Shown: one piece after another, positions 23,425 to 63,300 of the stretch
Position numbering within the stretch: position 1 is the stretch's first letter
Layout: each line of letters opens with the position of its first letter
NCBI GenBank assembly: GCA_026770025.1
Contig: JAMXDE010000028.1
Coordinates: 728,748 to 792,747, forward strand
Length of the DNA: 64,000 nt
Origin: Craspedostauros australis
Taxonomy: Eukaryota > Bacillariophyta > Bacillariophyceae > Mastogloiales > Achnanthaceae
Direction of reading: 5' to 3'
Position numbers and translations under genes: made by a program
The notes under the pieces: model-generated
Told to the model about the DNA's origin: nothing
What the model saw: the letters and a program-made list of their open reading frames with translations, nothing else
Databases searched by the model: none

Positions 23425-23506
23425 TCAGCTTGCTGCTCTTGAATGATGTTCGTCTTCCTCGCACGATCCGATCCGCGGGCTTGCCCTGATCTATCGTTTA
23501 TAAACG

Positions 23507-32175: not shown

Positions 32176-33173
32176 CGTGTAGCTGGGTGTTGCGAGGACG
32201 TGGTCGTTGGTCCAATTTGTTATTATTATCGGACGAGTATTTTCCCGCAGCTCCCAGGAAAGTGGTCACACTTGGAAATGACTGCGCCGTCCGCTGTGAT
32301 GTCGAAGTGTTCGCCGGGATGTGACGGTGGATTTCTGCGCTTGTCGGAATTCGTCGGGAATGGAAGTGGTGCCGGATGGAAAGCGCCAGTGATGGCGAAG
32401 GTGTCAACGGTATCTCAAGTGGACTGTAGTCGGGTGATCTTGGATGACTGATTGATAAAAACACCCAACGGGACCAAGTGAATTTCCCGATTGACCAAAT
32501 GCGAAGACGGTGAGAAATGTCAGTCAGGACCGTATGAATTTCCTGGTTGGGTTATTTGTTGGCGCGCGACCCGAAGTCCGATGGATGACTGGGATGGCGA
32601 AGGAGTTGTGAACCGATGTGACGCGCCAGTGATGGTACGAACCGAAGGAATTCGTAGCCAATCAGAAGGTGGACTGAGCGCGAATGGCTGTTGTTGATGG
32701 AACGATTGTTGTTTTGTTGGTCTTGAAACGATGAAACGTCGCGGATGGATTGCGCGTTGGATGGCCCTGCCCGTTCGGATTTCGTCTCTCCGAGCGCCGT
32801 ATTCTTGCGCTTGTTCAGCTGTGCTTCACCAAGATGTGATGCACCTTTGGTTTTACCCAGTTGGACCTTCGATCCAATCCGTGCCTCCTTTGAGTGCCAC
32901 GGACCAGCTTGCTATACGTGTTTTAGATCTGGCAGCAGCTTGCCCGATGTACCTGATGCTAACAGGATTTTGCACGCTAATGAGCGCGGTGCCCCCCAGG
33001 TGCCAGCAACTGCTTTGATTCACCTGGTTCCACCACTCGCGTTTTCATCCAGCTTAAACCAGCCTTTCGGTGTCGTTAGACTTATTCGCGTGATATTGCT
33101 ATCAACACAATGCTAGCTTTACGGGTTGCTTCCGCGGTATCTCTACCGATCGCGTTTCTTCCCCAGTCAAGGG

Positions 33174-33187
33174 CGGACGCTAGTCCG
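33174..33187 (-). ncRNA. Leader hairpin with a covarying base pair
   Basis: In type I the plus strand reads cggac-gcta-gtccg (33,174-33,187). In the type II leader (35,686-35,699, sense strand) it is cagac-tagc-gtctg. The second pair changes from G-C to A-T on both sides, keeping the 5-bp stem. One compensated pair is weak but direct evidence of RNA structure. Confidence 0.4.
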
Positions 33188-33320
33188 GTTAGCAGTTATC
33201 TCTGCGTCCCTTTTGGACGTTAACCGATCTCAAGTACGGCTTAGACTTAGTGTTAACGACTGACCAGGTCGCGACAACTCACGGGGAGATTGCCGATAGG
33301 TTTCAGAGGGCCTTTCCGCT

Positions 33321-33425
33321 CCAAGTTTTTACGTGTATCTTGCTTCACGGGCTTTCACCTTTGTCGATGCTGACCAGGCCAAGTGTTTACGTGTGTCTTG
33401 CTTCACGGGCTTTTACACCTTTGTC
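33321..33425 (-). repeat. Tandem imperfect repeats in the F1 leader
   Basis: Two copies of a ~45-base unit containing cttgcttcacgggctt and acgtgt, separated by 13 bases with the tgaccag motif, which recurs at 33,431. Also present in the other leaders (35,450-35,556 in B, 49,551-49,655 in C). Confidence 0.75.
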
Positions 33426-33716
33426 TTTTAGCTGACCAGCTATCGTAAGTAATGCAGTGATGCGATACTTGGTTGTTGGGATGAATTACTCCGCCTGCGA
33501 TATTCGCAACAGCGGGTGAGCCTTTCTGCACTTTGGCAGGGCAAAGCGGGTGTGGCGGCACGTAGCAATCTGCACACACGAGCGATTGGGTTCGTCGTCA
33601 CGAACGCGTTGGGTTCTTCGGCCGGAATCAAAGGAAGGGACAGCGTGATGTCACCAAGGCAGCACAGCGCTTCAGGATTCGTTCATGTACTCCGATAGAG
33701 ACTGCGACTGTTAATC

Positions 33717-34451
33717 TGATAATCAGCAATTACACACAGGAAAAGGGCACCAAACACTGCACTTACTACGCCGCCAGGGTGATCAATCCGTCAGGTGGAG
33801 TTGGAGATGTTTGGTGTTTGTTGTTGTTCTAATAGGTTGTGTTCAATTGATGATTGAGTTTGGATTATGAGATGATGATCTCCTATTTCTAATGATGGTG
33901 CCTATTGCACGGTTTCTAACGTGCTGCTTGATTACCTCATGTTGTATCTCGCAGTCTTTCCTAAAACATTGCCCAAGATGGTATGTTGATCTACACGATA
34001 TCTCGTGTTATCTCCACCTTTGGTCTTTCTTCATCTCTGCCTGATCTTGTCTGGTCTTGATCTCTGTTTGATCACATATGGATTGATCCGTCTACGTCGG
34101 TGGGGTGCATGCATCACCCCTGACGATGTTGTTCTGGATCCTAAATGTTGCTGCCACGTGCTCGATGATGCATTCGGCTAGGCTAGACAGGTCAGCATAC
34201 CATGACTAAAATATAATCTCGATTCCGAGGATCACAATGACCGATCCTCTGACGTCATACGATGATGTCAGTGCCTACGTCAGATTCGATGACAGTAGTG
34301 ACTGAATCTCAATCGTGTATCAAGACTCACTCGACTATACTCTCAAAATCGAGTCGAATCAAAAATAATGAATCACGTTTCAGTCATGAGAGATGAGTAC
34401 CTAATTTCGCTCTAGATGTTGATACTCCCCTATAGTCGGGAGTCTTGTTCA
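33717..34451 (-). repeat. F1 unit A 5' LTR, type I
   Basis: 735 bp, reads identical to 25,984-26,718 and 49,947-50,681. Its outer end abuts the truncated type-II LTR of unit B in head-to-head orientation; the junction contains ttcat (34,448-34,452). Confidence 0.85.
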
Positions 34452-34452
34452 T

Positions 34453-35158
34453 TATCAACATCTAGATCGAAATTAGGTACCCATCTCCCATGACTGAAAC
34501 GTGATTCACTATTTTGATTCGACTCGATTTTGAGAGTATAGTCGAGTGAGTCTTGATACACGATTGCGATCCAGTCACTACTGTCATCGAACATGACGTA
34601 GGCACTGACATCATCGTATGACGTCAGAGGATCGGTCATTGTGATCCTCGGAATCGAGATTATATTTTAGTCATGGTATGCTGACCTGTCTAGCCTAGCC
34701 GAGTGCATCATCGAGCACGTGGCAACAACATTTAGAGTAGAGATCGTCGTCGTCAGAGGTGATGCATGCACCTCGTCGACGTAGACGGATCAATCCATAT
34801 ATGATCAAACAGAGATCAAGATTAGGCAAGACCAGGAGAGATGAAGAAAGACCCAAAGGCGAGAATAACACGGAATATCGTGTAAATCAACATGCCATCT
34901 TGGGCAATGTTTTAGGAAAGACTGCGAGAGAAACCACGAGGTAACCGAGCAGCACGTTAGCAACCGTGCAATAGGCACCATCATTAGAAATAGGAGATCA
35001 TCATCTCATAATCCAAACCTCAATCATCAATTGAATACAACCATAACTTAGCAACAACTATCACCAAACACACCGGCTTCACCTGACGGATTGATCACCC
35101 TGGCGGAGGAGTAAGTGCAGTGTTTGGTGCCTGTCCTGTATTGAATTGCTGATTATCA
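34453..35158 (+). repeat. F1 unit B 5' LTR, type II, 27 bases missing
   Basis: 706 bp in plus orientation, beginning tatcaacatctag. The full type-II LTR at 42,216-42,948 has 27 more bases at this end (tgaacaagactccc...). Otherwise I found one difference between the two copies. Preceded by ttcat, the proposed target duplication. Confidence 0.8.
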
Positions 35159-36754
35159 GATTAACAGTCGCAGTCTCTATCGGAGTGCATGAACGAATCC
35201 TGAAGCGCTGTGCTGCCTGGTGACATCACGCTGTCCCCTTCCCTTTGAATCCGGAGATAACCAAAGCGTCCGTGACGACGGACCAGATTGCTCGTGTGTG
35301 CAGATTGCTACGTGCCGCCACACCCGCTTTGCCCTGCTAAAGTGCAGAAAGGCTCACCCGCTGTTGCGAATATCGCAGGCGGAGTAATTCATTCCAACAA
35401 CCAAGTTCCGCATCACTGCGTTACTTACGATAGCTGGTCAGCTAAAAGACAAAGGTATAAAAGCCCGTGAAGCAAGACACACGTAAACACTTGGCCTGGT
35501 CAGCATCGACAAAGGTGAAAGCCCGTGAAGCAAGATACACGTAAAAACTTGGAGCGGAAAGGCCCTCTGAAACCTATCGGCAATCTCCCCGTGAGTTGTC
35601 GCGACCTGGTCAGTCGTTAACACTAAGTCTAAGCCGTACTTGAGATCGGTTAACGTCCAAAAGGGACGCAGAGATAACTGCTAACCAGACTAGCGTCTGC
35701 CCTTGACTGGGGAAGAAACGTGATCGGTAGAGATACCGCGGAAGCAACCCGTAAAGCTAGCATTGTGTTGATAGCAATATCACACAAGTGAGTCTAACGA
35801 CACCGGAAGGCAGGTATACGCTGGACGAAAACGCGAGTGGTGGAACCAGGTGAATCAAAGCAGTTGCTGGCACCTGGGGGGCACCGCGCTCATTAGCGTG
35901 CAAAATCCTGTTAGTATCAGGTACATCGGGCAAGCTGCTGCCAGATCTAAAACACGTATAGCAAGCTGATCCGTGGCACTCAAAGGAGGCACGGATTGGA
36001 TCGAAGGTCCAACTGGGTGAAACCAAAGGTGCACCACATCCTGGTGGAGCACAGCTGAACAAGCGCAAGAATACAGCGTTCGGAGAGACGAAATCCGAAC
36101 GGGCAGGGCCATCCAACGCGCAATCCATCCGCGACGTTTCATCGTTTTTCAAGACTAACAAACCGACAACAATTCCATCAACAACGCCCATTTGCGCTCA
36201 GTCCACCTTCTGATTGGCTACGAATTCCTTCAGTTCGTACAATCACTGGCGCGTCATCACCGGCTCACAACTCCTTCGCCATTCCAGTCATTCATCCGAC
36301 TTCGGGTCGCGCGCCAACACATCGTCCAAACGGGAAATTCACACGGTCCTGACTGACGTTTTTCCATCGGTCATCCTTCGCCTCGGGTTAAGCACGGTCA
36401 TCTTCGCATTCATCGATCGGGAAATTCACACGGTCCCGTCTGGCCTTCCATCCGTCGGTCAGTCACAATTCGAGACATCGCGCACGGATCAACGGCAGTC
36501 CACTCGTGACATCACGTTCCCGCTGACGCCTTCGCCATCACTGGCGCTTTCCATCCGGCACCACTTCCATTCCCGACGAATTCCGACAAGCGCAGAAATC
36601 CACCGTCACATCCCGGCGAACACTTCGACATCACAGCGGACGGCGCAGTCATTTCCAAGTGTGACCACTTTCCTGGGAGCTGCGGGAAAATACTCGTCCG
36701 ATAATAATAACAAATTGGACCAACGACCACGTCCTCGCAACACCCAGCTACACG
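35159..36754 (+). promoter_or_regulatory. F1 unit B leader: type II, switching to type I at ~36,527
   Basis: Same plan as the unit A leader (repeats at 35,450-35,556, hairpin at 35,686-35,699). 35,159 to about 36,180 differs from type I by roughly two dozen bases over the ~700 nt compared; 36,180-36,527 is much more diverged. From about 36,528 onward it is identical to type I. The switch marks one side of the proposed inversion crossover. Confidence 0.7.
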
Positions 36755-39700
36755 ATGTCCAACGCAATCCCAATCAACGACACCATCCTGGCGCACGTCC
36801 TCAGCGTTCTCGGATATGACGACTCGTCTACCGAATGGCTTATCTTGCATACCGAAGAGATCCGAACCATCATGGATTTCGCTTCGCTTCATCGCGAAGA
36901 CATGCTTGACATGAACGCCACCATCGCGCGATCTGATCCGGAACCCGACTACGTAGCCCAACTGTCTAAGGTAGCAATCCGGAAATTCTCCAATGCCATT
37001 GGCTGGTTCAGTGTTCAACCTAGTCCCACTGTAGAGACATGGCGGGAACTCAACCCAGCTTCATACATGGAGTATGTCGCCCGGACGTTCACACCATCGC
37101 CCGCATCCTCAACCGCCATGCCTGACACAGCCACCAGCGCATTCCCCTTCGAACCAACGAAGACCGACCCAACGGAGAAGACCGGACGCGACCTCGCCGC
37201 AGAGTTCAACCGTAGCATCAAGCGTAACATTAGCGACTATCCCAAGTTGTCTGATGATAAATACTTCGCTACATTCCATCGTCGTCTGCGTGCCACTGCT
37301 GCTGCTCATGGCATCTCAAATGTTCTCGATGTTGACTACACCCCACCCGATGAACAAGCCGAGCTCTTCAAAGTGCAGTCCACCTTCCTGTTCAACGTGT
37401 TTGTATCCAACCTGCAGACCACGAAGAGTAGGAAGTGTGTCACTCCGTATGAGTCGATCTGTGATGGTCAAGCCGTCTACTGCATGCTGGTCCGCGAGTA
37501 CACCACCGGTGCCACCGCCGTCAACACCATCCGACGCATCCGAGACGAGATCATCAAGTTCAAGCTGGACAAGCAGTGGCGCAAAACTCGTGAGCAGTTC
37601 CTGGACCTGTGGCAACACAAGGTGCACGAACTTGAGGCATTGCGTGATGATCCGATCGACGATGCGACGAAGAAGGAGTGGTTGACGAACGCCATCGAGG
37701 CCGACAAGGCTCTGTACCAGTCTATCTTCCAGACTGACTACCTGCAGACCGCGATCCTGGCCTACACACCCGGCACCTCCGCAACCACCATGGAGTTCGA
37801 TACCCTCGTTGAGCTCGTTCGGTCGTACGCCGTCCAACTCGATGGCCACGACGCCAACAAGCCAAAGACGCCACGGCAAGTTAACAACACCGACCAGCGC
37901 AAGCAACGTGGGAAGGATAAGGACGACGGACCCAATCTCTGGAAGTCCAACAAGGACTACAGCAAGGAGACACGAGAACGGCTGCCGCGAGAGGAGTTCC
38001 AAAAGCTGACTGACAAGCAACGCAGCGACTTCCTCCAAGCCCGGCGAGCCAAGTCTGGACGTGGTAAGAAGGACAAGCCTAGGCGTTCTGCCAACAACAC
38101 CAACCGCAGTGGATCCACATCCAACCAGAACGACCAACAGGACACCCAGACCAACGACAAAGGTAGTAACAATAACGAATCTAGTTCTACCGCTGGAACA
38201 GCAATCAACCGTATGCTATCCAGTGCCATGTCTAGCGCGTCCGGGAGCCCGCCGACTACCCTCGTCATTGACGGTCGCACCTACACCCTGTCTCACACGA
38301 ACGTATCGTACAAGTTCAACAACGCGAACGTGACTGTGCAAGGCGCATTGGTGGATGGAGGTGCGAACGGCGGTCTCGTTGGCGATGACATGCTGGTGAT
38401 GGAGTCCACGTCCAACCGTGCTGATGTCTCTGGAATCGGCGACGCAGAGATCAAGGATCTAGCGCTGGTCACGGCCACCGCTGTCATCCAGACCACCTCA
38501 GGGCCGGTGATCGGTTGGTTCCATCAGTACGCCAACTACGGGAAAGGGCGCACCATCCATTCTGCCAACCAGCTCGCGGCGTTTGGATTGGATGTCAATG
38601 AGCGACCAAAGAACCTCCCTGGCGGTCGGCAAACCATTGTCACGCCAGACGGATTCATCATCCCGCTCACCGTGCGTCACGGCCTCGCATACATGGATAT
38701 GCACAAGCCAACTCAGGCGGAGCTAGACGATCTGCCACACGTGTTCTTCACCTCCGACCAAGAATGGGACCCATCTGTCCTGGACGGGGAGGCTGATCTG
38801 GACAACATTCCCGCAACCGAACGCGGCGAAGACAACGACATCGACATCACCATCTCCAAGTGCGTTCAGTACGTTCAATCCGCTGCGACGCTCGGGGATG
38901 GGGAGAAGGCGACCAAGGCCGGGCCACGCAACATCGTGGGTAAAGCGCCCAACTTCCATGCGCTACGGCCGTACTTCGGGTGGATTCCAGCAGACCGCGT
39001 GCGTGACACTCTTGCATGTACTACCCAGTGGTATCGCATGTCTGAGCGTTACCCCATGCGTAAACACTATAAGTCTAGATTCCCCGCAGCCAATGTCAAC
39101 CGACTACATGATGTTGTTTCCATGGACACGTTGTTCTCCGACACGCCTGCTCACCATGACGGAGTCCCCGGACACGGTGGATGTACCATGGTACAGGTGT
39201 TTGTAGGATCCAACACGCGCCTCACAGCGGCGTACCCTCTGGCAAGCGAATCCCATGTTCCCCATGTTGTCCAAGACTTCATTCGGGAGCATGGTGCCAT
39301 GGACGTGTTGATGTCCGACAATGCCACGGCGCAACTCGGAGGTAAGATGAAGGACATCCTCCGACAGTACTGCATTGCAGACCACCAGTCCGAACCACAC
39401 CACCAACATCAGAATCCTGTCGAGCGACGCATCCAGGATGTGAAGCGCACCACCAACGGCATCATGGACAGAACTGGCACTCCTGCCAGGTTCTGGCTCA
39501 TCTGCACCCTGTATGTCGTGGGACTGCTCAACCATCTGTCGCAGTCCACGGCTGGCCACATCACGCCCATCCAAGCCGCCACAGGCCAGCGCCCTGATGT
39601 CAGCAAGTACCTCAGCTTCCACTGGTGGGAGCCAGTGTACTACAAGGTCGGGGACGCTGCCTTCCCAGGTACCACGCAGGAACGGCGTGGACGCTGGGCT

Positions 39701-42214
39701 GGACCATGCGAACACAAGGGTGATGAACTGACGTTCTGGGTACTCGATGACGCGACGCAACGGCTGTTGCCACGCTCGAGCATCCGACGTGTGTCTGATG
39801 ACGCGCGAAACCTACGGGCAGACTACCCCCTGCCTGCTTCTGGGGAGGATGGTGACGTGGGTGACGAAGCTAGCGAAACCGTAAATCCAGATGATTTCGG
39901 TAGTGACAGCACACCTAAAGCTAGACAACCCGTTGTGCATGCACTGTCTGACCTGGTAGCCACATCACATGGAGAACCAGATCCAGGTGTAGTCAAAGTC
40001 CCCAAGTTCAGTCCTGATGAGCTGCTCGGATTGACCTTCCTCCATCAACAGGATGGACTCAAATGGAGAGCTCGAGTGATCCGCAAGATCAAGGACGGAG
40101 ACGCAGCCAACCATGACAACATCAAGATGCTGATCGCATACGGCGATGATGACACCGAAGAGCTCATCGCGTACACGGATCTAGCTGACATCATCGAACA
40201 GCAGCACGAACAGGAGATCGGCGATGGGGAGATGTGCGTATTCAAAGCCATCACCGGACACGAAGGCCCATTCCACTCCAGTCACAGCAAGTACAATGGC
40301 TCCTCCTACAATGTGAAGGTACAATGGGAGGATGGCAGTGTGACCATGGAACCACTGGATGTGATCGCCAAAGATGACCCTGTATCCTGTGCGAAGTACG
40401 CCGCAGACAACAACCTCCTCGGTCTGCCTGGCTGGAAAAGATTCCGTAAACTAGCAAAGAGAAAGAAGAAACTCAATCGTCTTATCAATGCTGGGAAACG
40501 CAAAACACGTGCACAAGGTCCTATCTTCAAGTTTGGTGTTCAGGTTCCACGGAACGGAAAGGAAGCACGCCAGCTTGACGAAAAGAATGGCAACTCCAAG
40601 TGGGTAGACGCTGAGAGAAAAGAAATGGCTCAGCTCCACGAGTATGGCACGTTCAAGGATCTCGGAAAGAACGCTCGGAAACCAGACGGATACAAGCAGA
40701 TCAAGCTCCTCTGGGTGTACGACGTGAAACACGACCTTCGACACAAGGCAAGATGCGTAGCAGGAGGCCACCTAACGGATCCATGCAAGGATATGGCATA
40801 TGCTGGAGTAGTCAATCTCAGATCATTCAGGATTGCACTGCTTGCTGCAGAACTCAACAACCTCAAGCCCATGGTGGGTGATATCGGTAATGCCTATCTA
40901 GAAGCATACACAAAAGAAAAGATCTGTTTCGTAGCTGGTCCTGAGTTCCAAGAGTTTGCTGGTCACATGATGATCATTGTGAAAGCGCTCTACGGACTAC
41001 GCACATCCGGTGCTCGATTCCACGAGTCTCTGGCCGACACACTCCGCGACATGAAGTTCTTTCAGTGCAAAGCTGACCCGGATGTGTGGATGAGGGATGC
41101 TGGTAGATGCTGGGAATACATCTGTGTGTACGTAGATGATCTGATGGCCGTCATGGAAGACCCACAGTCATTCTTCGACACGCTCATCAACAAGTACAAG
41201 TACAAGTTGAAGGGTGTAGGACCAATCAAGTATCACCTCGGCGCAGACTTCGACCGAGACAAAGACGGAACCCTGACTATGAGCCCGCAATCCTACATCA
41301 AACGGATGCTGGCGAACTACGAACAGGTGCATGGGGAGCTTCCACGGACCTACACCAGTCCCATGGAACACAACGACGCCCCCGAGCTAGACACATCACG
41401 TGAACTAAACCCTGTAGAGACCAGACAGTTTCAATCACTCATCGGCGCCCTTCAATGGTGCATCACATTGGGACGGTTTGATATTGCTGCAGCTGTGATG
41501 ACTTTGTCTAGATTCAGAGCTCAACCCAGGATTGGTCACATGGACCGTGCTAAACGTGTGTATGGATACCTCCGAAAGCGTTCTGATGCCGCCATCAGGT
41601 TCAGAACGGGAATTCCAGATCACGAGCGCTTCTTCGAGGTTCCTGATCATGAATGGATGTACTCTGTGTATGGTGACGCCGAAGAGGAGACCGCAGACGA
41701 CGATCCAACACCCAAAGGCAAGGCAGTTCGAATGACGACGTTTGTAGATGCCAATCTCATGCACTGCAAAGTGACAGGCAAATCTGCAACTGGTGTTCTC
41801 CATCTGCTCAACCAGACACCCATCGAATGGTTCAGCAAACGCCAGACCACTGTCGAGACTGCAACCTATGGATCGGAATTCGTCGCGGCAAGACAGGCAA
41901 CAGAGCAAGTGATTGCTATGCGCCTTACTCTTCGCGCAATGGGAATTCCCCTGGACGGACCCGCCTGGATGTTCGGAGACAACCAGAGTGTGATCACTTC
42001 CTCCACCATTCCCAACAGTGTGTTGTCCAAACGACACAACGCATTGGCGTACCACCGCGTGCGTGCCGCAGTAGCTGCGAAGATCCTGCATTTCTGCAAG
42101 ATAGACGGAACGGAAAACGTAGCCGACGTCATGACCAAGTTCCTTCCATGGGCGAAGTACTGGCCGTTAGTGAGGCCGCTTCTATTCTGGAAAGGAGAGA
42201 CTCTGGGTGGATGA
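36755..42214 (+). CDS. F1 unit B Gag-Pol polyprotein (1819 aa, intact frame)
   Basis: Same length and architecture as unit A, in opposite orientation. Two residue differences noticed: EDN for EDD near residue 693, and GVVKV for GVAKV in the IN-RT linker; unit D shares both B states, so A is the derived copy. Protease D534, integrase D791/D855/E890, RT YVDD 1459-1462 and RNase H D1665 are all present. The coding part is type I while its 5' LTR and leader are type II. After the stop there is no 3' LTR in the correct orientation: the sequence goes tgaa then directly into the minus-oriented type-II LTR at 42,216. As it stands the unit can be transcribed from its LTR but lacks a proper 3' end for strand transfer. 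Confidence 0.88.
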   Translation: MSNAIPINDTILAHVLSVLGYDDSSTEWLILHTEEIRTIMDFASLHREDMLDMNATIARSDPEPDYVAQLSKVAIRKFSNAIGWFSVQPSPTVETWRELNPASYMEYVARTFTPSPASSTAMPDTATSAFPFEPTKTDPTEKTGRDLAAEFNRSIKRNISDYPKLSDDKYFATFHRRLRATAAAHGISNVLDVDYTPPDEQAELFKVQSTFLFNVFVSNLQTTKSRKCVTPYESICDGQAVYCMLVREYTTGATAVNTIRRIRDEIIKFKLDKQWRKTREQFLDLWQHKVHELEALRDDPIDDATKKEWLTNAIEADKALYQSIFQTDYLQTAILAYTPGTSATTMEFDTLVELVRSYAVQLDGHDANKPKTPRQVNNTDQRKQRGKDKDDGPNLWKSNKDYSKETRERLPREEFQKLTDKQRSDFLQARRAKSGRGKKDKPRRSANNTNRSGSTSNQNDQQDTQTNDKGSNNNESSSTAGTAINRMLSSAMSSASGSPPTTLVIDGRTYTLSHTNVSYKFNNANVTVQGALVDGGANGGLVGDDMLVMESTSNRADVSGIGDAEIKDLALVTATAVIQTTSGPVIGWFHQYANYGKGRTIHSANQLAAFGLDVNERPKNLPGGRQTIVTPDGFIIPLTVRHGLAYMDMHKPTQAELDDLPHVFFTSDQEWDPSVLDGEADLDNIPATERGEDNDIDITISKCVQYVQSAATLGDGEKATKAGPRNIVGKAPNFHALRPYFGWIPADRVRDTLACTTQWYRMSERYPMRKHYKSRFPAANVNRLHDVVSMDTLFSDTPAHHDGVPGHGGCTMVQVFVGSNTRLTAAYPLASESHVPHVVQDFIREHGAMDVLMSDNATAQLGGKMKDILRQYCIADHQSEPHHQHQNPVERRIQDVKRTTNGIMDRTGTPARFWLICTLYVVGLLNHLSQSTAGHITPIQAATGQRPDVSKYLSFHWWEPVYYKVGDAAFPGTTQERRGRWAGPCEHKGDELTFWVLDDATQRLLPRSSIRRVSDDARNLRADYPLPASGEDGDVGDEASETVNPDDFGSDSTPKARQPVVHALSDLVATSHGEPDPGVVKVPKFSPDELLGLTFLHQQDGLKWRARVIRKIKDGDAANHDNIKMLIAYGDDDTEELIAYTDLADIIEQQHEQEIGDGEMCVFKAITGHEGPFHSSHSKYNGSSYNVKVQWEDGSVTMEPLDVIAKDDPVSCAKYAADNNLLGLPGWKRFRKLAKRKKKLNRLINAGKRKTRAQGPIFKFGVQVPRNGKEARQLDEKNGNSKWVDAERKEMAQLHEYGTFKDLGKNARKPDGYKQIKLLWVYDVKHDLRHKARCVAGGHLTDPCKDMAYAGVVNLRSFRIALLAAELNNLKPMVGDIGNAYLEAYTKEKICFVAGPEFQEFAGHMMIIVKALYGLRTSGARFHESLADTLRDMKFFQCKADPDVWMRDAGRCWEYICVYVDDLMAVMEDPQSFFDTLINKYKYKLKGVGPIKYHLGADFDRDKDGTLTMSPQSYIKRMLANYEQVHGELPRTYTSPMEHNDAPELDTSRELNPVETRQFQSLIGALQWCITLGRFDIAAAVMTLSRFRAQPRIGHMDRAKRVYGYLRKRSDAAIRFRTGIPDHERFFEVPDHEWMYSVYGDAEEETADDDPTPKGKAVRMTTFVDANLMHCKVTGKSATGVLHLLNQTPIEWFSKRQTTVETATYGSEFVAARQATEQVIAMRLTLRAMGIPLDGPAWMFGDNQSVITSSTIPNSVLSKRHNALAYHRVRAAVAAKILHFCKIDGTENVADVMTKFLPWAKYWPLVRPLLFWKGETLGG

Positions 42215-42215
42215 A

Positions 42216-42948
42216 TGATAATCAGCAATTCAATACAGGACAGGCACCAAACACTGCACTTACTCCTCCGCCAGGGTGATCAATCCGTCAGGTGAAGCCG
42301 GTGTGTTTGGTGATAGTTGTTGCTAAGTTATGGTTGTATTCAATTGATGATTGAGGTTTGGATTATGAGATGATGATCTCCTATTTCTAATGATGGTGCC
42401 TATTGCACGGTTGCTAACGTGCTGCTCGGTTACCTCGTGGTTTCTCTCGCAGTCTTTCCTAAAACATTGCCCAAGATGGCATGTTGATTTACACGATATT
42501 CCGTGTTATTCTCGCCTTTGGGTCTTTCTTCATCTCTCCTGGTCTTGCCTAATCTTGATCTCTGTTTGATCATATATGGATTGATCCGTCTACGTCGACG
42601 AGGTGCATGCATCACCTCTGACGACGACGATCTCTACTCTAAATGTTGTTGCCACGTGCTCGATGATGCACTCGGCTAGGCTAGACAGGTCAGCATACCA
42701 TGACTAAAATATAATCTTGATTCCGAGGATCACAATGACCGATCCTCTGACGTCATACGATGATGTCAGTGCCTACGTCATGTTCGATGACAGTAGTGAC
42801 TGGATCGCAATCGTGTATCAAGACTCACTCGACTATACTCTCAAAATCGAGTCGAATCAAAATAGTGAATCACGTTTCAGTCATGGGAGATGGGTACCTA
42901 ATTTCGATCTAGATGTTGATACTCCCCTATGGTCGGGAGTCTTGTTCA
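42216..42948 (-). repeat. F1 unit C 3' LTR, type II (733 bp, complete)
   Basis: Complete type-II LTR on minus, from tgataatcagcaattcaa at 42,216 to gtcttgttca at 42,948. On the right it joins the unit C coding end normally. On the left it joins the coding end of unit B (tggatgaa), which is explained by inversion and not by a normal insertion. Confidence 0.85.
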
Positions 42949-45393
42949 TCCACCCAGAGTCTCTCCTTTCCAGAATAGAAGCGGCCTCACTAACGGCCAG
43001 TACTTCGCCCATGGAAGGAACTTGGTCATGACGTCGGCTACGTTTTCCGTTCCGTCTATCTTGCAGAAATGCAGGATCTTCGCAGCTACTGCGGCACGCA
43101 CGCGGTGGTACGCTAGTGCGTTGTGTCGTTTAGACAACACACTGTTTGGGATGGTGGAGGATGTGATCACGCTCTGGTTGTCTCCGAACATCCAGGCGGG
43201 TCCGTCCAGCGGAATTCCCATTGCACGAAGAGTGAGGCGCATCGCAATCACTTGCTCTGTTGCTTGCCTTGCCGCGACGAATTCCGATCCATAGGTTGCA
43301 GTCTCGACTGTAGTCTGGCGTTTGCTGAACCATTCGATGGGTGTCTGGTTGAGCAGATGGAGAACACCAGTTGCAGATTTACCAGTCACTTTGCAGTGCA
43401 TGAGATTGGCATCCACAAACGTCGTCATTCGAACTGCCTTGCCCTTGGGTGTTGGATCGTCGTCCGCGGTCTCCTCTTCGGCGTCACCATACACAGAGTA
43501 CATCCATTCATGATCAGGAACCTTGAAGAAACGCTCGTGATCTGGAATTCCCGTTCTGAACCTGATGGCGGCATCAGAACGCTTTCGGAGGTATCCATAC
43601 ACGCGTTTAGCGCGGTCCATGTGACCAATCCTGGGTTGGGCTCTGAATCTAGACAAAGTCATCACAGCTGCAGCAATATCAAACCGTCCCAATGTGATGC
43701 ACCATTGAAGGGCGCCGATGAGTGATTGGAACTGTCTGGTTTCTACAGGGTTTAGTTCGCGTGATGTGTCTAGCTCTGGGGCATCGTTGTGTTCCATGGG
43801 ACTGGTGTAGGTCCGTGGAAGCTCCCCATGCACCTGTTCGTAATTCGCCAGCATCCGTTTGATGTAGGATTGCGGGCTCATAGTCAGGGTTCCGTCTTTG
43901 TCTCGGTCGAAGTCTGCGCCGAGGTGATACTTGATTGGTCCTACACCTTTCAACTTGTACTTGTACTTGTTGATGAGCGTGTCGAAGAATGACTGTGGGT
44001 CTTCCATGACGGCCATCAGATCATCTACGTACACACAGATGTATTCCCAGCATCTACCAGCATCCCTCATCCACACATCCGGGTCAGCTTTGCACTGAAA
44101 GAACTTCATGTCGCGGAGTGTGTCGGCCAGAGACTCGTGGAATCGAGCACCGGATGTGCGTAGTCCGTAGAGCGCTTTCACAATGATCATCATGTGACCA
44201 GCAAACTCTTGGAACTCAGGACCAGCTACGAAACAGATCTTCTCCTTTGTGTAGGCTTCTAGATAGGCATTACCAATATCACCCACCATGGGTTTGAGGT
44301 TGTTGAGTTCTGCTGCAAGCAGTGCAATCCTGAATGATCTGAGATTGACTACTCCAGCATATGCCATATCCTTGCATGGATCCGTCAAGTGGCCTCCTGC
44401 TACGCATCTTGCCTTGTGCCGAAGATCGTGCTTCACGTCATACACCCAGAGGAGCTTGATCTGCTTGTATCCATCTGGTTTCCGAGCGTTCTTTCCGAGA
44501 TCCTTGAACGTGCCATATTCGTGGAGCTGATCCATTTCTTTTCTCTCAGCGTCTACCCACTTGGAGTTGCCATTCTTTTCGTCAAGCTGGCGTGCTTCCT
44601 TTCCGTTGCGTGGAACTTGAACACCAAACTTGAAGATAGGACCTTGTGCACGAGCTTTGCGTTTCCCAGCATTGATGAGACGATTGAGTTTCTTCTTTCT
44701 CTTTGCTAGTTTACGGAATCTTTTCCAGCCAGGCAGACCGAGGAGGTTGTTGTCTGCGGCGTACTTCGCACAGGATACAGGGTCATCTTTGGCGATCACA
44801 TCCAGTGGTTCCATGGTCACACTGCCATCCTCCCATTGTACCTTCACATTGTAGGAGGAGCCATTGTACTTGCTGTGACTGGAGTGGAATGGGCCTTCGT
44901 GTCCGGTGATAGCTTTGAAAACGCACATCTCCCCATCGCCGATCTCCTGTTCGTGCTGCTGTTCGATGATGTCAGCTAGATCCGTGTACGCGATGAGCTC
45001 TTCGGTGTCGTCGTCGCCGTATGCGATGAGCATCTTGATGTTGTCATGGTTGGCTGCGTCTCCGTCCTTGATCTTGCGGATTACGCGAGCTCTCCATTTG
45101 AGTCCATCCTGTTGGTGGAGGAAGGTCAATCCGAGCAGCTCATCAGGACTGAATTTGGGGACTTTGACTACGCCAGGATCTGATTCTCCATGTGATGTGG
45201 CTACCAGGTCAGATAGTGCATGCACAACGGGTTGTCTAGCTTTAGGTGTGCTTTCAATGTCGAAGTCGTTTGGATTTCCGGTCTCGCTAGCTTCGTCACC
45301 CACGTCACCCTCCTCCCCAGAATCAGGCAGGGGGTAGTCAGCCCGAAGGTTTCGCGCGTCATCAGACACACGTCGGATGCTCGAGCGTGGCAA
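42946..45393 (-). CDS. F1 unit C Pol, RT and RNase H half (after TAG)
   Basis: 815 codons continuing in the same frame as 45,400-48,405. It holds the IN-RT linker, reverse transcriptase with YVDD, and RNase H. Type-II substitutions relative to A include LPDSGEEGD, ETGNPNDFDIEST, GESDPG, KRKARAQ, EMDQLHE and FFKVPDHE. There is no start codon of its own; it would be made only by readthrough of the TAG. Confidence 0.8.
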   Translation of the reverse strand: MPRSSIRRVSDDARNLRADYPLPDSGEEGDVGDEASETGNPNDFDIESTPKARQPVVHALSDLVATSHGESDPGVVKVPKFSPDELLGLTFLHQQDGLKWRARVIRKIKDGDAANHDNIKMLIAYGDDDTEELIAYTDLADIIEQQHEQEIGDGEMCVFKAITGHEGPFHSSHSKYNGSSYNVKVQWEDGSVTMEPLDVIAKDDPVSCAKYAADNNLLGLPGWKRFRKLAKRKKKLNRLINAGKRKARAQGPIFKFGVQVPRNGKEARQLDEKNGNSKWVDAERKEMDQLHEYGTFKDLGKNARKPDGYKQIKLLWVYDVKHDLRHKARCVAGGHLTDPCKDMAYAGVVNLRSFRIALLAAELNNLKPMVGDIGNAYLEAYTKEKICFVAGPEFQEFAGHMMIIVKALYGLRTSGARFHESLADTLRDMKFFQCKADPDVWMRDAGRCWEYICVYVDDLMAVMEDPQSFFDTLINKYKYKLKGVGPIKYHLGADFDRDKDGTLTMSPQSYIKRMLANYEQVHGELPRTYTSPMEHNDAPELDTSRELNPVETRQFQSLIGALQWCITLGRFDIAAAVMTLSRFRAQPRIGHMDRAKRVYGYLRKRSDAAIRFRTGIPDHERFFKVPDHEWMYSVYGDAEEETADDDPTPKGKAVRMTTFVDANLMHCKVTGKSATGVLHLLNQTPIEWFSKRQTTVETATYGSEFVAARQATEQVIAMRLTLRAMGIPLDGPAWMFGDNQSVITSSTIPNSVLSKRHNALAYHRVRAAVAAKILHFCKIDGTENVADVMTKFLPWAKYWPLVRPLLFWKGETLGG

Positions 45394-45399
45394 CAGCCG

Positions 45400-48300
45400 C
45401 TACGTTGCATCATCCAGTACCCAGAACGTCAGTTCGTCACCCTTGTGCTCGCACGGTCCAGCCCAGCGTCCACGCCGTTCCTGCGTGGTGCCCGGGAAGG
45501 CAGCATTCCCAACCTTGTAGTACACCGGCTCCCACCAGTGGAAGTTGAGGTACTTGCTCACGTCGGGACGTTGGCCAGTGGCGGCTTGGATGGGTGTGAT
45601 GTGACCGGCCGTGGACTGTGACAGATGGTTGAGCAGTCCCACGACGTACAAGGTGCAGATGAGCCAGAACCTGGCAGGGGTGCCAGTTCGGTCCATGATG
45701 CCGTTGGTGGTGCGCTTGATATCCTGGATGCGTCTCTCGACAGGATTCTGATGCTGGTGGTGTGGTTCGGACTGGTGGTCTGCGATGCAGTACTGCCGGA
45801 GGATGTCCTTCATCTTACCTCCGAGTTGCGCCGTGGCGTTGTCGGACATCAACACGTCCATGGCACCATGCTCCCGAATGAAGTCTTGGACAACATGGGG
45901 AACATGGGATTCGCTTGCCAGAGGGTACGCCGCTGTGAGGCGCGTGTTGGATCCTACAAACACCTGTACCATGGTACATCCACCGTGTCCGGGAACTCCA
46001 TCATGATGAGCAGGCGTGTCAGAGAACAACGTGTCCATGGAAACAACATCATGTAGTCGGCTGACATTGGCTGCGGGGAATCTAGACTTATAGTGCTTTC
46101 GCATGGGGTAACGCTCAGACATGCGGTACCATTGGGTAGTACATGCAAGAGTGTCACGCACGCGGTCTGCTGGAATCCACCCGAAGTACGGCCGTAGCGC
46201 ATGGAAGTTGGGCGCTTTACCCACGATGTTGCGTGGCCCGGCCTTGGTCGCCTTCTCCCCATCCCCGAGCGTCGCAGCGGATTGAACGTACTGAACGCAC
46301 TTGGAGATGGTGATGTCGATGTCGTCGTCGTCGCCGCGTTCGGTTGCGGGAATGTTGTCCAGATCAGCCTCCCCGTCCAGGACAGATGGGTCCCATTCTT
46401 GGTCGGAGGTGAAGAACACGTGTGGCAGATCGTCTAGCTCCGCCTGAGTCGGCTTGTGCATATCCATGTATGCGAGGCCTTGACGCACGGTGAGCGGGAT
46501 GATGAATCCGTCTGGCGTGACGATGGTTTGCCGACCGCCAGGGAGGTTCTTTGGTCGCTCATTGACATCCAATCCAAACGCCGCGAGCTGGTTGGCAGAA
46601 TGGATGGTGCGCCCTTTCCCGTAGTTGGCGTACTGATGGAACCAACCGATCACCGGCCCTGAGGTGGTCTGGATGACAGCGGTGGCCGTGACCAGCGCCA
46701 GATCCTTGATCTCTGCGTCGCCGATTCCAGAGACATCAGCACGGTTGGACGTGGACTCCATCACCAGCATGTCATCGCCAACGAGACCGCCGTTCGCACC
46801 TCCATCCACCAATGCGCCTTTCACAGTCACGTTCGCGTTGTTGAACTTGTACGATACGTTCGTGTGAGACAGGGTGTAGGTGCGACCGTCAATGACGAGG
46901 GTAGCCGGCGGGCTCCCGGACGCGCTAGACATGGCACTGGATAGCATACGGTTGATTGCTGTTCCAGCGGTAGAACTAGATTCGTTATTGTTACTACCTT
47001 TGTCGTTGGTCTGGGTGTCCTGTTGGTCGTTCTGGTTGGATGTGGATCCACTGCGGTTGGTGTTGTTGGCGGAACGCCGGGGCTTGTCCTTCTTACCACG
47101 TCCAGACTTGGCTCGCCGGGCTTGGAGGAAGTCGCTGCGTTGCTTGTCAGTCAGCTTTTGGAACTCCTCTCGCGGCAGCCGTTCTCGTGTCTCCTTGCTG
47201 TAGTCCTTGTTGGACTTCCAGAGATTGGGTCCGTCGTCCTTATCCTTCCCGCGTTGCTTGCGCTGGTCGGTGTTGTTAACTTGCCGTGGCGTCTTTGGCT
47301 TGTTGGCGTCGTGGCCATCGAGTTGGACGGCGTACGACCGAACGAGCTCCACGAGAGTGTCGAACTCCATGGTGGTCGCGGTCTTGCCGGGTGAGTAGGC
47401 CAGGATAGCGGTCTGCAGGTAGTCAGTCTGGAAGATAGACTGGTACAGAGCCTTGTCGGCCTCGATGGCGTTGGTCAACCACTCCTTCTTCGTCGCGTCG
47501 TCGATCGGATCATCACGCAAAGCCTCAAGTTCGTGCACCTTGTGTTGCCACAGGTCCAGGAACTGCTCACGAGTTTTGCGCCACTGCTTATCCAGCTTGA
47601 ACTTGATGATCTCGTCTCGGATGCGTCGGATGGTGTTGACGGCGGTGGCACCGGTGGTGTACTCGCGGACCAGCATGCAGTAGACGGCTTGACCATCACA
47701 GATCGACTCATACGGAGTGACACACTTCCTACTCTTCGTGGTCTGCAGGTTGGATACAAACACGTTGAACAGGAAGGTGGACTGCACTTTGAAGAGCTCG
47801 GCTTGTTCATCGGGTGGGGTGTAGTCAACATCGAGAACATTTGAGATGCCATGAGCAGCAGCAGTGGCACGCAGACGACGATGGAATGTAGCGAAGTATT
47901 TATCATCAGACAACTTGGGATAGTCGCTAATGTTACGCTTGATGCTACGGTTGAACTCTGCGGCGAGGTCGCGTCCGGTCTTCTCCGTTGGGTCGGTCTT
48001 CGTTGGTTCGAAGGGGAATGCGCTGGTGGCTGTGTCAGGCATGGCGGTTGAGGATGCGGGCGATGGTGTGAACGTCCGGGCGACATACTCCATGTATGAA
48101 GCTGGGTTGAGTTCCCGCCATGTCTCTACAGTGGGACTAGGTTGAACACTGAACCAGCCAATGGCATTGGAGAATTTCCGGATTGCTACCTTAGACAGTT
48201 GGGCTACGTAGTCGGGTTCCGGATCAGATCGCGCGATGGTGGCGTTCATGTCAAGCATGTCTTCGCGATGAAGCGAAGCGAAATCCATGATGGTTCGGAT

Positions 48301-48405
48301 CTCTTCGGTATGCAAGATAAGCCATTCAGTTGACGAGTCGTCATATCCGAGAACGCTGAGGACGTGCGCCAGGATGGTGTCGTTGATTGGAATTGCGTTG
48401 GACAT
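45400..48405 (-). CDS. F1 unit C Gag-protease-integrase, ends at in-frame TAG
   Basis: 1001 codons from ATG 48,405 to TAG at 45,400-45,402. In A and B this codon is CAA (Gln) in DATQRLLPRSS. Gag, the DGGAN protease and the whole integrase core are intact. Protein differences from A (SPGKTATT, TVKGALVD, VRQGLAY, AANVSRLH, QDIKRTT, KYLNFHW, VGNAAF) show the type-II coding sequence. Base differences begin within the first codons (48,391; 48,328-48,331), whereas the leader to the right is pure type I. The position of the stop, exactly between integrase and RT, would separate Gag-PR-IN from RT-RH. Confidence 0.85.
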   Translation of the reverse strand: MSNAIPINDTILAHVLSVLGYDDSSTEWLILHTEEIRTIMDFASLHREDMLDMNATIARSDPEPDYVAQLSKVAIRKFSNAIGWFSVQPSPTVETWRELNPASYMEYVARTFTPSPASSTAMPDTATSAFPFEPTKTDPTEKTGRDLAAEFNRSIKRNISDYPKLSDDKYFATFHRRLRATAAAHGISNVLDVDYTPPDEQAELFKVQSTFLFNVFVSNLQTTKSRKCVTPYESICDGQAVYCMLVREYTTGATAVNTIRRIRDEIIKFKLDKQWRKTREQFLDLWQHKVHELEALRDDPIDDATKKEWLTNAIEADKALYQSIFQTDYLQTAILAYSPGKTATTMEFDTLVELVRSYAVQLDGHDANKPKTPRQVNNTDQRKQRGKDKDDGPNLWKSNKDYSKETRERLPREEFQKLTDKQRSDFLQARRAKSGRGKKDKPRRSANNTNRSGSTSNQNDQQDTQTNDKGSNNNESSSTAGTAINRMLSSAMSSASGSPPATLVIDGRTYTLSHTNVSYKFNNANVTVKGALVDGGANGGLVGDDMLVMESTSNRADVSGIGDAEIKDLALVTATAVIQTTSGPVIGWFHQYANYGKGRTIHSANQLAAFGLDVNERPKNLPGGRQTIVTPDGFIIPLTVRQGLAYMDMHKPTQAELDDLPHVFFTSDQEWDPSVLDGEADLDNIPATERGDDDDIDITISKCVQYVQSAATLGDGEKATKAGPRNIVGKAPNFHALRPYFGWIPADRVRDTLACTTQWYRMSERYPMRKHYKSRFPAANVSRLHDVVSMDTLFSDTPAHHDGVPGHGGCTMVQVFVGSNTRLTAAYPLASESHVPHVVQDFIREHGAMDVLMSDNATAQLGGKMKDILRQYCIADHQSEPHHQHQNPVERRIQDIKRTTNGIMDRTGTPARFWLICTLYVVGLLNHLSQSTAGHITPIQAATGQRPDVSKYLNFHWWEPVYYKVGNAAFPGTTQERRGRWAGPCEHKGDELTFWVLDDAT

Positions 48406-49946
48406 CGTGTAGCTGGGTGTTGCGAGGACGTGGTCGTTGGTCCAATTTGTTATTATTATCGGACGAGTATTTTCCCGCAGCTCCCAGGAAAGTGGTCACA
48501 CTTGGAAATGACTGCGCCGTCCGCTGTGATGTCGAAGTGTTCGCCGGGATGTGACGGTGGATTTCTGCGCTTGTCGGAATTCGTCGGGAATGGAAGTGGT
48601 GCCGGATGGAAAGCGCCAGTGATGGCGAAGGTGTCAACGGTATCTCAAGTGGACTGTAGTCGGGTGATCTTGGATGACTGATTGATAAAAACACCCAACG
48701 GGACCAAGTGAATTTCCCGATTGACCAAATGCGAAGACGGTGAGAAATGTCAGTCAGGACCGTATGAATTTCCTGGTTGGGTTATTTGTTGGCGCGCGAC
48801 CCGAAGTCCGATGGATGACTGGGATGGCGAAGGAGTTGTGAACCGATGTGACGCGCCAGTGATGGTACGAACCGAAGGAATTCGTAGCCAATCAGAAGGT
48901 GGACTGAGCGCGAATGGCTGTTGTTGATGGAACGATTGTTGTTTTGTTGGTCTTGAAACGATGAAACGTCGCGGATGGATTGCGCGTTGGATGGCCCTGC
49001 CCGTTCGGATTTCGTCTCTCCGAGCGCCGTATTCTTGCGCTTGTTCAGCTGTGCTTCACCAAGATGTGATGCACCTTTGGTTTTACCCAGTTGGACCTTC
49101 GATCCAATCCGTGCCTCCTTTGAGTGCCACGGACCAGCTTGCTATACGTGTTTTAGATCTGGCAGCAGCTTGCCCGATGTACCTGATGCTAACAGGATTT
49201 TGCACGCTAATGAGCGCGGTGCCCCCCAGGTGCCAGCAACTGCTTTGATTCACCTGGTTCCACCACTCGCGTTTTCATCCAGCTTAAACCAGCCTTTCGG
49301 TGTCGTTAGACTTATTCGCGTGATATTGCTATCAACACAATGCTAGCTTTACGGGTTGCTTCCGCGGTATCTCTACCGATCGCGTTTCTTCCCCAGTCAA
49401 GGGCGGACGCTAGTCCGGTTAGCAGTTATCTCTGCGTCCCTTTTGGACGTTAACCGATCTCAAGTACGGCTTAGACTTAGTGTTAACGACTGACCAGGTC
49501 GCGACAACTCACGGGGAGATTGCCGATAGGTTTCAGAGGGCCTTTCCGCTCCAAGTTTTTACGTGTATCTTGCTTCACGGGCTTTCACCTTTGTCGATGC
49601 TGACCAGGCCAAGTGTTTACGTGTGTCTTGCTTCACGGGCTTTTACACCTTTGTCTTTTAGCTGACCAGCTATCGTAAGTAATGCAGTGATGCGATACTT
49701 GGTTGTTGGGATGAATTACTCCGCCTGCGATATTCGCAACAGCGGGTGAGCCTTTCTGCACTTTGGCAGGGCAAAGCGGGTGTGGCGGCACGTAGCAATC
49801 TGCACACACGAGCGATTGGGTTCGTCGTCACGAACGCGTTGGGTTCTTCGGCCGGAATCAAAGGAAGGGACAGCGTGATGTCACCAAGGCAGCACAGCGC
49901 TTCAGGATTCGTTCATGTACTCCGATAGAGACTGCGACTGTTAATC
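48406..49946 (-). promoter_or_regulatory. F1 unit C leader, type I
   Basis: Reads identical to the unit A leader throughout, including the direct repeats (49,551-49,655) and hairpin. It is joined to a type-II coding region: the reverse of unit B. Confidence 0.7.
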
Positions 49947-50681
49947 TGATAATCAGCAATTACACACAGGAAAAGGGCACCAAACACTGCACTTACTACG
50001 CCGCCAGGGTGATCAATCCGTCAGGTGGAGTTGGAGATGTTTGGTGTTTGTTGTTGTTCTAATAGGTTGTGTTCAATTGATGATTGAGTTTGGATTATGA
50101 GATGATGATCTCCTATTTCTAATGATGGTGCCTATTGCACGGTTTCTAACGTGCTGCTTGATTACCTCATGTTGTATCTCGCAGTCTTTCCTAAAACATT
50201 GCCCAAGATGGTATGTTGATCTACACGATATCTCGTGTTATCTCCACCTTTGGTCTTTCTTCATCTCTGCCTGATCTTGTCTGGTCTTGATCTCTGTTTG
50301 ATCACATATGGATTGATCCGTCTACGTCGGTGGGGTGCATGCATCACCCCTGACGATGTTGTTCTGGATCCTAAATGTTGCTGCCACGTGCTCGATGATG
50401 CATTCGGCTAGGCTAGACAGGTCAGCATACCATGACTAAAATATAATCTCGATTCCGAGGATCACAATGACCGATCCTCTGACGTCATACGATGATGTCA
50501 GTGCCTACGTCAGATTCGATGACAGTAGTGACTGAATCTCAATCGTGTATCAAGACTCACTCGACTATACTCTCAAAATCGAGTCGAATCAAAAATAATG
50601 AATCACGTTTCAGTCATGAGAGATGAGTACCTAATTTCGCTCTAGATGTTGATACTCCCCTATAGTCGGGAGTCTTGTTCA
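49947..50681 (-). repeat. Shared F1 LTR, type I, between units C and D
   Basis: A single 735-bp LTR that acts at once as 5' LTR of unit C (followed by its leader) and 3' LTR of unit D (its TGA stop at 50,679-50,681 lies in it). No flanking duplication or second LTR lies between the two units. Confidence 0.85.
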
Positions 50682-53600
50682 TCCACCCAGAGTCTCTCCT
50701 TTCCAGAATAGAAGCGGCCTCACTAACGGCCAGTACTTCGCCCATGGAAGGAACTTGGTCATGACGTCGGCTACGTTTTCCGTTCCGTCTATCTTGCAGA
50801 AATGCAGGATCTTCGCAGCTACTGCGGCACGCACGCGGTGGTACGCCAATGCGTTGTGTCGTTTGGACAACACACTGTTGGGAATGGTGGAGGAAGTGAT
50901 CACACTCTGGTTGTCTCCGAACATCCAGGCGGGTCCGTCCAGGGGAATTCCCATTGCGCGAAGAGTAAGGCGCATAGCAATCACTTGCTCTGTTGCCTGT
51001 CTTGCCGCGACGAATTCCGATCCATAGGTTGCAGTCTCGACAGTGGTCTGGCGTTTGCTGAACCATTCGATGGGTGTCTGGTTGAGCAGATGGAGAACAC
51101 CAGTTGCAGATTTGCCTGTCACTTTGCAGTGCATGAGATTGGCATCTACAAACGTCGTCATTCGAACTGCCTTGCCTTTGGGTGTTGGATCGTCGTCTGC
51201 GGTCTCCTCTTCGGCGTCACCATACACAGAGTACATCCATTCATGATCAGGAACCTCGAAGAAGCGCTCGTGATCTGGAATTCCCGTTCTGAACCTGATG
51301 GCGGCATCAGAACGCTTTCGGAGGTATCCATACACACGTTTAGCACGGTCCATGTGACCAATCCTGGGTTGAGCTCTGAATCTAGACAAAGTCATCACAG
51401 CTGCAGCAATATCAAACCGTCCCAATGTGATGCACCATTGAAGGGCGCCGATGAGTGATTGAAACTGTCTGGTCTCTACAGGGTTTAGTTCACGTGATGT
51501 GTCTAGCTCGGGGGCGTCGTTGTGTTCCATGGGACTGGTGTAGGTCCGTGGAAGCTCCCCATGCACCTGTTCGTAGTTCGCCAGCATCCGTTTGATGTAG
51601 GATTGCGGGCTCATAGTCAGGGTTCCGTCTTTGTCTCGGTCGAAGTCTGCGCCGAGGTGATACTTGATTGGTCCTACACCCTTCAACTTGTACTTGTACT
51701 TGTTGATGAGCGTGTCGAAGAATGACTGTGGGTCTTCCATGACGGCCATCAGATCATCTACGTACACACAGATGTATTCCCAGCATCTACCAGCATCCCT
51801 CATCCACACATCCGGGTCAGCTTTGCACTGAAAGAACTTCATGTCGCGGAGTGTGTCGGCCAGAGACTCGTGGAATCGAGCACCGGATGTGCGTAGTCCG
51901 TAGAGCGCTTTCACAATGATCATCATGTGACCAGCAAACTCTTGGAACTCAGGACCAGCTACGAAACAGATCTTTTCTTTTGTGTATGCTTCTAGATAGG
52001 CATTACCGATATCACCCACCATGGGCTTGAGGTTGTTGAGTTCTGCAGCAAGCAGTGCAATCCTGAATGATCTGAGATTGACTACTCCAGCATATGCCAT
52101 ATCCTTGCATGGATCCGTTAGGTGGCCTCCTGCTACGCATCTTGCCTTGTGTCGAAGGTCGTGTTTCACGTCGTACACCCAGAGGAGCTTGATCTGCTTG
52201 TATCCGTCTGGTTTCCGAGCGTTCTTTCCGAGATCCTTGAACGTGCCATACTCGTGGAGCTGAGCCATTTCTTTTCTCTCAGCGTCTACCCACTTGGAGT
52301 TGCCATTCTTTTCGTCAAGCTGGCGTGCTTCCTTTCCGTTCCGTGGAACCTGAACACCAAACTTGAAGATAGGACCTTGTGCACGTGTTTTGCGTTTCCC
52401 AGCATTGATAAGACGATTGAGTTTCTTCTTTCTCTTTGCTAGTTTACGGAATCTTTTCCAGCCAGGCAGACCGAGGAGGTTGTTGTCTGCGGCGTACTTC
52501 GCACAGGATACAGGGTCATCTTTGGCGATCACATCCAGTGGTTCCATGGTCACACTGCCATCCTCCCATTGTACCTTCACATTGTAGGAGGAGCCATTGT
52601 ACTTGCTGTGACTGGAGTGGAATGGGCCTTCGTGTCCGGTGATGGCTTTGAATACGCACATCTCCCCATCGCCGATCTCCTGTTCGTGCTGCTGTTCGAT
52701 GATGTCAGCTAGATCCGTGTACGCGATGAGCTCTTCGGTGTCATCATCGCCGTATGCGATCAGCATCTTGATGTTGTCATGGTTGGCTGCGTCTCCGTCC
52801 TTGATCTTGCGGATCACTCGAGCTCTCCATTTGAGTCCATCCTGTTGATGGAGGAAGGTCAATCCGAGCAGCTCATCAGGACTGAACTTGGGGACTTTGA
52901 CTACACCTGGATCTGGTTCTCCATGTGATGTGGCTACCAGGTCAGACAGTGCATGCACAACGGGTTGTCTAGCTTTAGGTGTGCTGTCACTACCGAAATC
53001 ATCTGGATTTACGGTTTCGCTAGCTTCGTCACCCACGTCACCATCCTCCCCAGAAGCAGGCAGGGGGTAGTCTGCCCGTAGGTTTCGCGCGTCATCAGAC
53101 ACACGTCGGATGCTCGAGCGTGGCAACAGCCGTTGCGTCGCGTCATCGAGTACCCAGAACGTCAGTTCATCACCCTTGTGTTCGCATGGTCCAGCCCAGC
53201 GTCCACGCCGTTCCTGCGTGGTACCTGGGAAGGCAGCGTCCCCGACCTTGTAGTACACTGGCTCCCACCAGTGGAAGCTGAGGTACTTGCTGACATCAGG
53301 GCGCTGGCCTGTGGCGGCTTGGATGGGCGTGATGTGGCCAGCCGTGGACTGCGACAGATGGTTGAGCAGTCCCACGACATACAGGGTGCAGATGAGCCAG
53401 AACCTGGCAGGAGTGCCAGTTCTGTCCATGATGCCGTTGGTGGTGCGCTTCACATCCTGGATGCGTCACTCGACAGGATTCTGATGTTGGTGGTGTGGTT
53501 CGGACTGGTGGTCTGCAATGCAGTACTGTCGGAGGATGTCCTTCATCTTACCTCCGAGTTGCGCTGTGGCATTGTCGGACATCAACACGTCCATGGCACC

Positions 53601-56931: not shown

Positions 56932-56951
56932 CCCTTCCTATGTGCATTCGG

Positions 56952-63218: not shown

Positions 63219-63300
63219 TCAGCTTGCTGCTCTTGAATGATGTTCGTCTTCCTCGCACGATACGATTCGCGGGCTCGCCCTGATCTATCGTTTATAAACG

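Follow-up and report, generated by a model that had tools for sequence, protein, structure and literature searches.

The DNA analyzed here (the window, 64,000 nucleotides) is the right end of contig C26 of a 74.8-Mb Craspedostauros australis assembly (positions 728,748-792,747 of 792,747), and thus runs to the contig end. When the window is compared with itself, a row of retrotransposon units appears in the order A (minus strand), B (plus), a backward long terminal repeat (LTR), C (minus), D (minus) and a copia element, E; part of the same array recurs on a second contig, C37 (Table 1). The units show the traits of Ty1/copia elements, namely paired LTRs, 5-bp target-site duplications (TSDs) and a copia-type reverse transcriptase, identified by a Pfam search of the type-I and type-II open reading frames (RVT_2, E 7.7e-24 and 1.2e-23). 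Pfam gave no match in the first two thirds of the type-I ORF, and none at E 0.001, integrase and gag included, in the three other type-I/II ORF pieces searched. Type I and type II are labels for sequences at this locus, not family-wide clades. The LTRs of the family have the ends 5'-TA...CA-3' rather than TG...CA, with boundaries backed by TSDs (34453-34462 and 35149-35158 for unit B), and the TSD is 5 bp long in all four of the other family insertions with both ends read (C50, C15, and the outer and inner insertions on C56).

Table 1 Features of the nested retrotransposon locus, in window coordinates unless a contig is named
Feature	Position	Strand	Remarks
GGGGC (minus-strand reading), 3' target-site copy for the whole array	25979-25983	minus	Matches C37:625075-625079
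Unit A, complete type-I element	25984-34424	minus	LTRs 25984-26691 and 33717-34424
28-bp 3' tail of the internal region of interrupted unit X	34425-34452	minus	Extends to the insertion point
TTCAT, left copy of type-II TSD	34448-34452		Directly ahead of B LTR
5' LTR of type-II element (LTR_II)	34453-35158	plus	68 differences from type-I LTRs in 711 columns
Type-II leader, B side, to last type-II site	35159-36528	plus	Type-II sites include 36523 and 36528
240-bp tract, proposed left exchange interval	36529-36768		No A/B/C difference within
Type-I coding region, probably unit X's originally	36769-42215	plus	150 of 152 sites type I, other 2 changed in A alone
TTCAT reverse-complemented, right copy of type-II TSD	42211-42215		Directly ahead of backward LTR
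Backward LTR_II, read as type-II 3' LTR turned by inversion	42216-42921	minus	
Type-II coding region and 3' tail	42922-48391	minus	ORF with one in-frame stop
Proposed right exchange interval, same tract as left	48392-48631		On contig C37 without difference
Type-I leader of interrupted unit X	48632-49946	minus	0 differences from A leader in 1,367 aligned columns
Type-I LTR common to X and D	49947-50654	minus	Identical to both A LTRs
Unit D, type I	50655-56137	minus	Cut at 56137 by copia element E
Copia element E	56138-64000		Within D at leader/ORF border; 5-6 bp duplication (GTCCAA, read on C37)

The type-I units are very similar to one another. The two LTRs of unit A are identical over 711 aligned columns, and its ORF (26716-32175) encodes 1,819 aa. 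The coding frames of A and B are open; that of D is broken, in part by an additional base at 55,027 not found on C37. The remainder of D and its 5' LTR are found on C37 (625080-627336), where GGGGC stands directly ahead of the LTR, and on C26 the 3' LTR of A is followed by GGGGC. The 28-bp tail that adjoins A, which we assign to an interrupted unit X, is identical to the corresponding positions of A (26692-26719) and D (50655-50682). The two outer flanks of the array form the halves of a single repeat that contains a DDE_Tnp_1_7 (piggyBac-like) ORF. At paralogous sites (matches of at least 82% identity that hold both flank ends, weaker matches being left out) the left and right flanks adjoin in 16 of 16 cases with a 4-bp overlap, the right-flank query being one base short of the 5-bp TSD. 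Together with the GGGGC at both array ends, these adjoining flanks point to a single insertion site, from which the array would have expanded by LTR-sharing. The target site of X is this same GGGGC, outside the interval that we consider inverted.

Units B and C are reciprocal type-I/type-II chimeras. In the leader, A and B differ at 163 of 1,367 aligned columns, of which 95 are gap-free substitutions and 68 hold gaps; at all 95 gap-free columns C reads as A and not as B, and A and C do not differ at all. The pattern is reversed in the coding region, where A and C differ at 152 of 5,696 gapless positions. Here B agrees with A at 150 of the 152 sites and with C at two (37,159 and 39,993), and since D also agrees with B and C at these two, the change was in A alone. 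The original prediction had B pass from a type-II LTR and leader to type-I coding sequence at about 36,527, and C from a type-I LTR and leader, ending at about 48,630, to type-II coding sequence from about 48,391. These positions are borne out: the last type-II site in B is 36,528 and the first type-I site 36,769, and the coordinates for C (switch between 48,632 and 48,391) were right within about two bases. The extent given for the LTR of C required correction, as the LTR ends at 50,654, and 50,655-50,682 is the 28-bp 3' tail of D.

Both switches fall in one homologous tract of 240 bp, as had been proposed, and A, B and C do not differ within it. A base-by-base check of the diagnostic sites for many alternating blocks, as gene conversion might leave, found one switch per unit and no alternation in either leader or coding region. 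The tract is not marked out among possible exchange sites: two other identical tracts of the coding region, of 737 and 293 bp, exceed it in length, and it holds 8.9% of eligible positions (with a 100-bp minimum). Around the switches, B and C form a large inverted repeat with arms at 36520-42215 and 42945-48640, each of 5,696 nt, with 97% identity and 729 nt apart. The B-side ORF (36755-42214) is uninterrupted and its end falls within the TSD, and the type-II coding ORF has a single in-frame stop at codon 1,002 (45,400-45,402).

Given that types I and II are not family-wide clades, chimerism alone is no proof of an inversion, and the LTRs and target sites have to be considered. Unit B is without a 3' LTR of its own and is followed by a backward type-II LTR, an arrangement for which the original prediction had offered an inversion as the reason. 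The pairing of the LTRs agrees with this. The B LTR (34,453-35,158) and the backward LTR (42,216-42,921), in opposite orientation, differ at 1 of 711 aligned columns, whereas the LTRs that bound C have 69 differences in 711 columns. The LTRs of C thus come from different elements, and their 69 differences are no clock.

The strongest evidence for an inversion is a split TSD, which is new to this analysis. A 28-bp piece from the 3' end of a type-I internal region, with TTCAT as its final bases, stands ahead of the B LTR, and outside the backward LTR is TTCAT in reverse complement, followed by the remainder of the type-I internal region. In A and D the two half-sites adjoin exactly. Two random 5-mers from the window agree by chance with a frequency of 0.0014, and no intact TSD pair is present around B alone or around C alone. 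Based on the placement of TTCAT and the continuity of the half-sites in A and D, we take the pair as the 5-bp duplication of one type-II insertion with its right half turned round; the two copies would flank a normal type-II insertion only with the interval flipped back. Flipping the interval back also restores all parts of the complete type-II element that had been predicted, while its reading frame is not complete, given the stop at codon 1,002.

These features bear on whether B and C could be independent recombinants, produced by template switching between co-packaged RNAs, or gene-converted elements. Mosaic copies are common in this genome (those on C50, C15 and C56), which fits such an origin. 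Neither process reverses an LTR or places the two TTCAT copies, however, so that gene conversion alone is ruled out, as are independent recombinant elements by the TSD and LTR evidence. B would be left without a directly oriented 3' LTR and C with two LTRs that differ at 69 of 711 columns, while the TTCAT copies fit one type-II insertion that spans both units; moreover, two independent events are unlikely to have both ended in one tract. We consider this origin extremely unlikely.

Based on the backward LTR, the location of both switches in one homologous tract, the split TTCAT and the exact continuity of the interrupted type-I sequence, we conclude that a nested type-II insertion in a D-X-A array, followed by one inversion through exchange between inverted arms, is very probably the history of this locus. 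The order of events that we infer would begin with the insertion of a type-I Ty1/copia-like element (TSD GGGGC), and LTR-sharing would have expanded it, before or after the type-II insertion, to three near-identical type-I units on the minus strand, D-X-A. A related type-II element would have inserted head-on into the middle unit X, at the stop codon and 28 bp from the LTR, duplicating TTCAT. Nested in opposite orientation, the two elements would have had their homologous internal regions facing each other as the arms of a large inverted repeat. Within the identical 240-bp tract near the ORF start, a reciprocal exchange between the arms would then have flipped the segment that separates the exchange points, 11.6-12.1 kb long and centered on the type-II 3' LTR, and left B and C as its two reciprocal products. 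The insertion of element E into D may have come early or late in this order. No uninverted allele or copy was found in the assembly among the matches listed, so the ancestral order is deduced rather than seen; among the 40 scored candidates listed, exact matches to the type-II coding start are on C26 and C37 only.

The same product could arise if the flip took place by template switching between the inverted arms during replication, as in a quasi-palindrome, and not by crossover. The arms are close, at 729 nt, and the fragility of quasi-palindromes and template switching are discussed for yeast in the accessible part of one paper (PMC3855049). This route is a possibility to which we give some weight, and the sequence cannot separate it from crossover. 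There is no microhomology joint and no tract loss, and the switch is in homologous register, and on this basis we prefer homologous crossover.

The array continues on C37, which approaches it from the opposite end: in reverse, window positions 64,000-41,716 are collinear with C37:627,430-649,706. Of the 22,298 columns of the overlap, 5 are mismatches and 34 hold gaps; these are concentrated toward the two contig ends, and there are 0 differences between 45,795 and 55,026. The right-hand (C) switch lies in this identical stretch and is therefore found on both contigs; the left-hand switch is found on C26 only. C37 ends about 500 bp beyond the backward LTR, within the inverted repeat. The two contigs appear as two sides of one locus, with a 22.3-kb overlap left unmerged, and could be joined in a new assembly.

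In an assembly chimera, the chromosome would still be uninverted and the assembler would have jumped from one inverted arm to the other in the 240-bp tract. In favor of such an error, the inverted repeat is large with 97% identical arms, the window reaches a contig end, and C37 ends within the repeat, its last 2 kb having many indels relative to C26. The unmerged overlap and the end of C37 inside the inverted repeat indicate that the assembly was strained here, and the two contigs may share reads, so that the support of C37 for the right-hand switch may rest partly on the same reads as C26. Nevertheless, the right-hand switch is on two contigs with 0 differences over 9.2 kb, and a 240-bp tract is far below long-read length. 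The arms differ at more than 150 sites, unlike a missed-adapter palindrome, which rules out a sequencing-palindrome artifact. Thus, we regard an assembly chimera as quite unlikely and an inversion in the chromosome as the better reading.

Other copies of the family were surveyed in four genomic regions, a small sample. With the C37 copy of the locus excepted, the best other leader matches are at 97% and the best other LTR_II matches at 95%, among the matches listed, and no independent type-II reference that links a type-II leader to a type-II coding region was found elsewhere in the assembly among these matches. The copy on C50 is mosaic, its LTR being closest to type I and its leader to type II, each at 97%, and in the C15, C50 and C56 copies the nearest type changes from segment to segment, often by less than 1.5%. 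It is thus the joints and the orientation, rather than clades, that carry the case for an inversion. A head-on nest of family members at C56:134,443-151,446 has all its coding segments in order and both TSDs intact (CAATG and CATGG). Head-on nests thus exist without a flip, and this one provides a natural comparison for the inverted B/C locus. LTR-sharing tandem arrays recur in this genome; one at C34:632,379-656,470 has three units of a related element whose LTRs resemble type I at about 81%.

The proposed mechanism is established ectopic recombination, and the process itself is well known. According to the portion of the source available (PMC2775673), inverted copies of Galileo recombined ectopically to give inversion 2z3 of Drosophila buzzatii, leaving chimeric elements and redistributed TSDs. 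As described there, two homologous elements in opposite orientation are both chimeric and their TSDs are redistributed as ectopic recombination predicts, as here. Galileo is a DNA transposon and 2z3 a chromosomal inversion between distant sites, whereas our locus consists of nested LTR retrotransposons and its inverted 12 kb is made up entirely of transposon sequence. A diatom case, the CoDi elements PtC25 and PtC75 of Phaeodactylum tricornutum, is described in the available text of PMC2806351, where a TSD, ACAAG, divided over two loci led to the inference of ectopic recombination. Both cases involve diatom copia elements and a recombination read from a split TSD, but the exchange there was between two chromosomes, and the word inversion is absent from that text as available. 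An inverted Ty1 pair in yeast is a fragile site, as cited in the accessible part of PMC3855049; like B and C, it consists of two head-to-head copia-type elements separated by a short spacer, which measures about 280 bp in yeast and 729 bp at our locus. That pair was studied as a breakage site, while here a completed flip is recorded in natural sequence. Our locus is particular in being nested, in the completeness of its record and in the predicted loss of a sense terminator between the arms. Among the papers listed by our searches for inversions, for tandem arrays of LTR elements and for copia elements of diatoms there is no earlier such diatom case, which is weak evidence of absence, and a search on internal inversions found no paper.

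Loss of the terminator would alter the predicted transcript. Before the inversion, a transcript from the type-II 5' LTR would reach the sense 3' LTR, with its likely polyadenylation signal, ahead of the opposite arm. With the 3' LTR now backward, a putative read-through transcript from 34,453 could cross the type-I arm, the antisense LTR and then antisense C. By analogy with Mu killer of maize, for which hairpin silencing has been proposed in the part of the source available (PMC3440606), the inversion might have made the nested insertion into a natural hairpin-RNA locus, an idea that we consider unlikely. If it were true, a hairpin with 5.7-kb arms could feed small RNAs against the whole family. 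Candidate silencing proteins in the host genome include two matches to the Piwi domain and three to RNase III (PF00636); PF14622 has no match in this genome.

The locus preserves a clear natural record of DNA remodeling by nested retrotransposons, whose TSDs and single-base markers allow insertion, unequal expansion, head-on nesting and inversion to be placed in sequence. An apparent recombinant element can be the scar of an inversion, which matters for annotation and for LTR-based dating. The locus also allows direct tests of recurrent flipping, heterozygosity and hairpin-RNA silencing.

Several observations concern the surroundings of the array and the genome at large. The frames of element E differ between C26 and C37 by single-base indels. 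A relative of E, copia element F (18623-24296), has its LTRs (18623-19424 and 23507-24296) in opposite orientation, is without the part that matches E 56932-59207 and has no clear TSD around its backward LTR; these features may be the trace of another inversion or deletion, independent of the one at B and C. At 10487-10525 and 17742-17780, about 7 kb apart, the window has a perfect 39-bp inverted repeat. In the host genome there are 61 matches to light-harvesting proteins, and the nearest relatives of a sample protein are fucoxanthin- and other light-harvesting proteins of algae. Silicon transporters (PF03842) have 88 matches genome-wide; 32 of these, some with in-frame stops, cover 480 or more of the profile's 513 positions, and this family looks strongly expanded.
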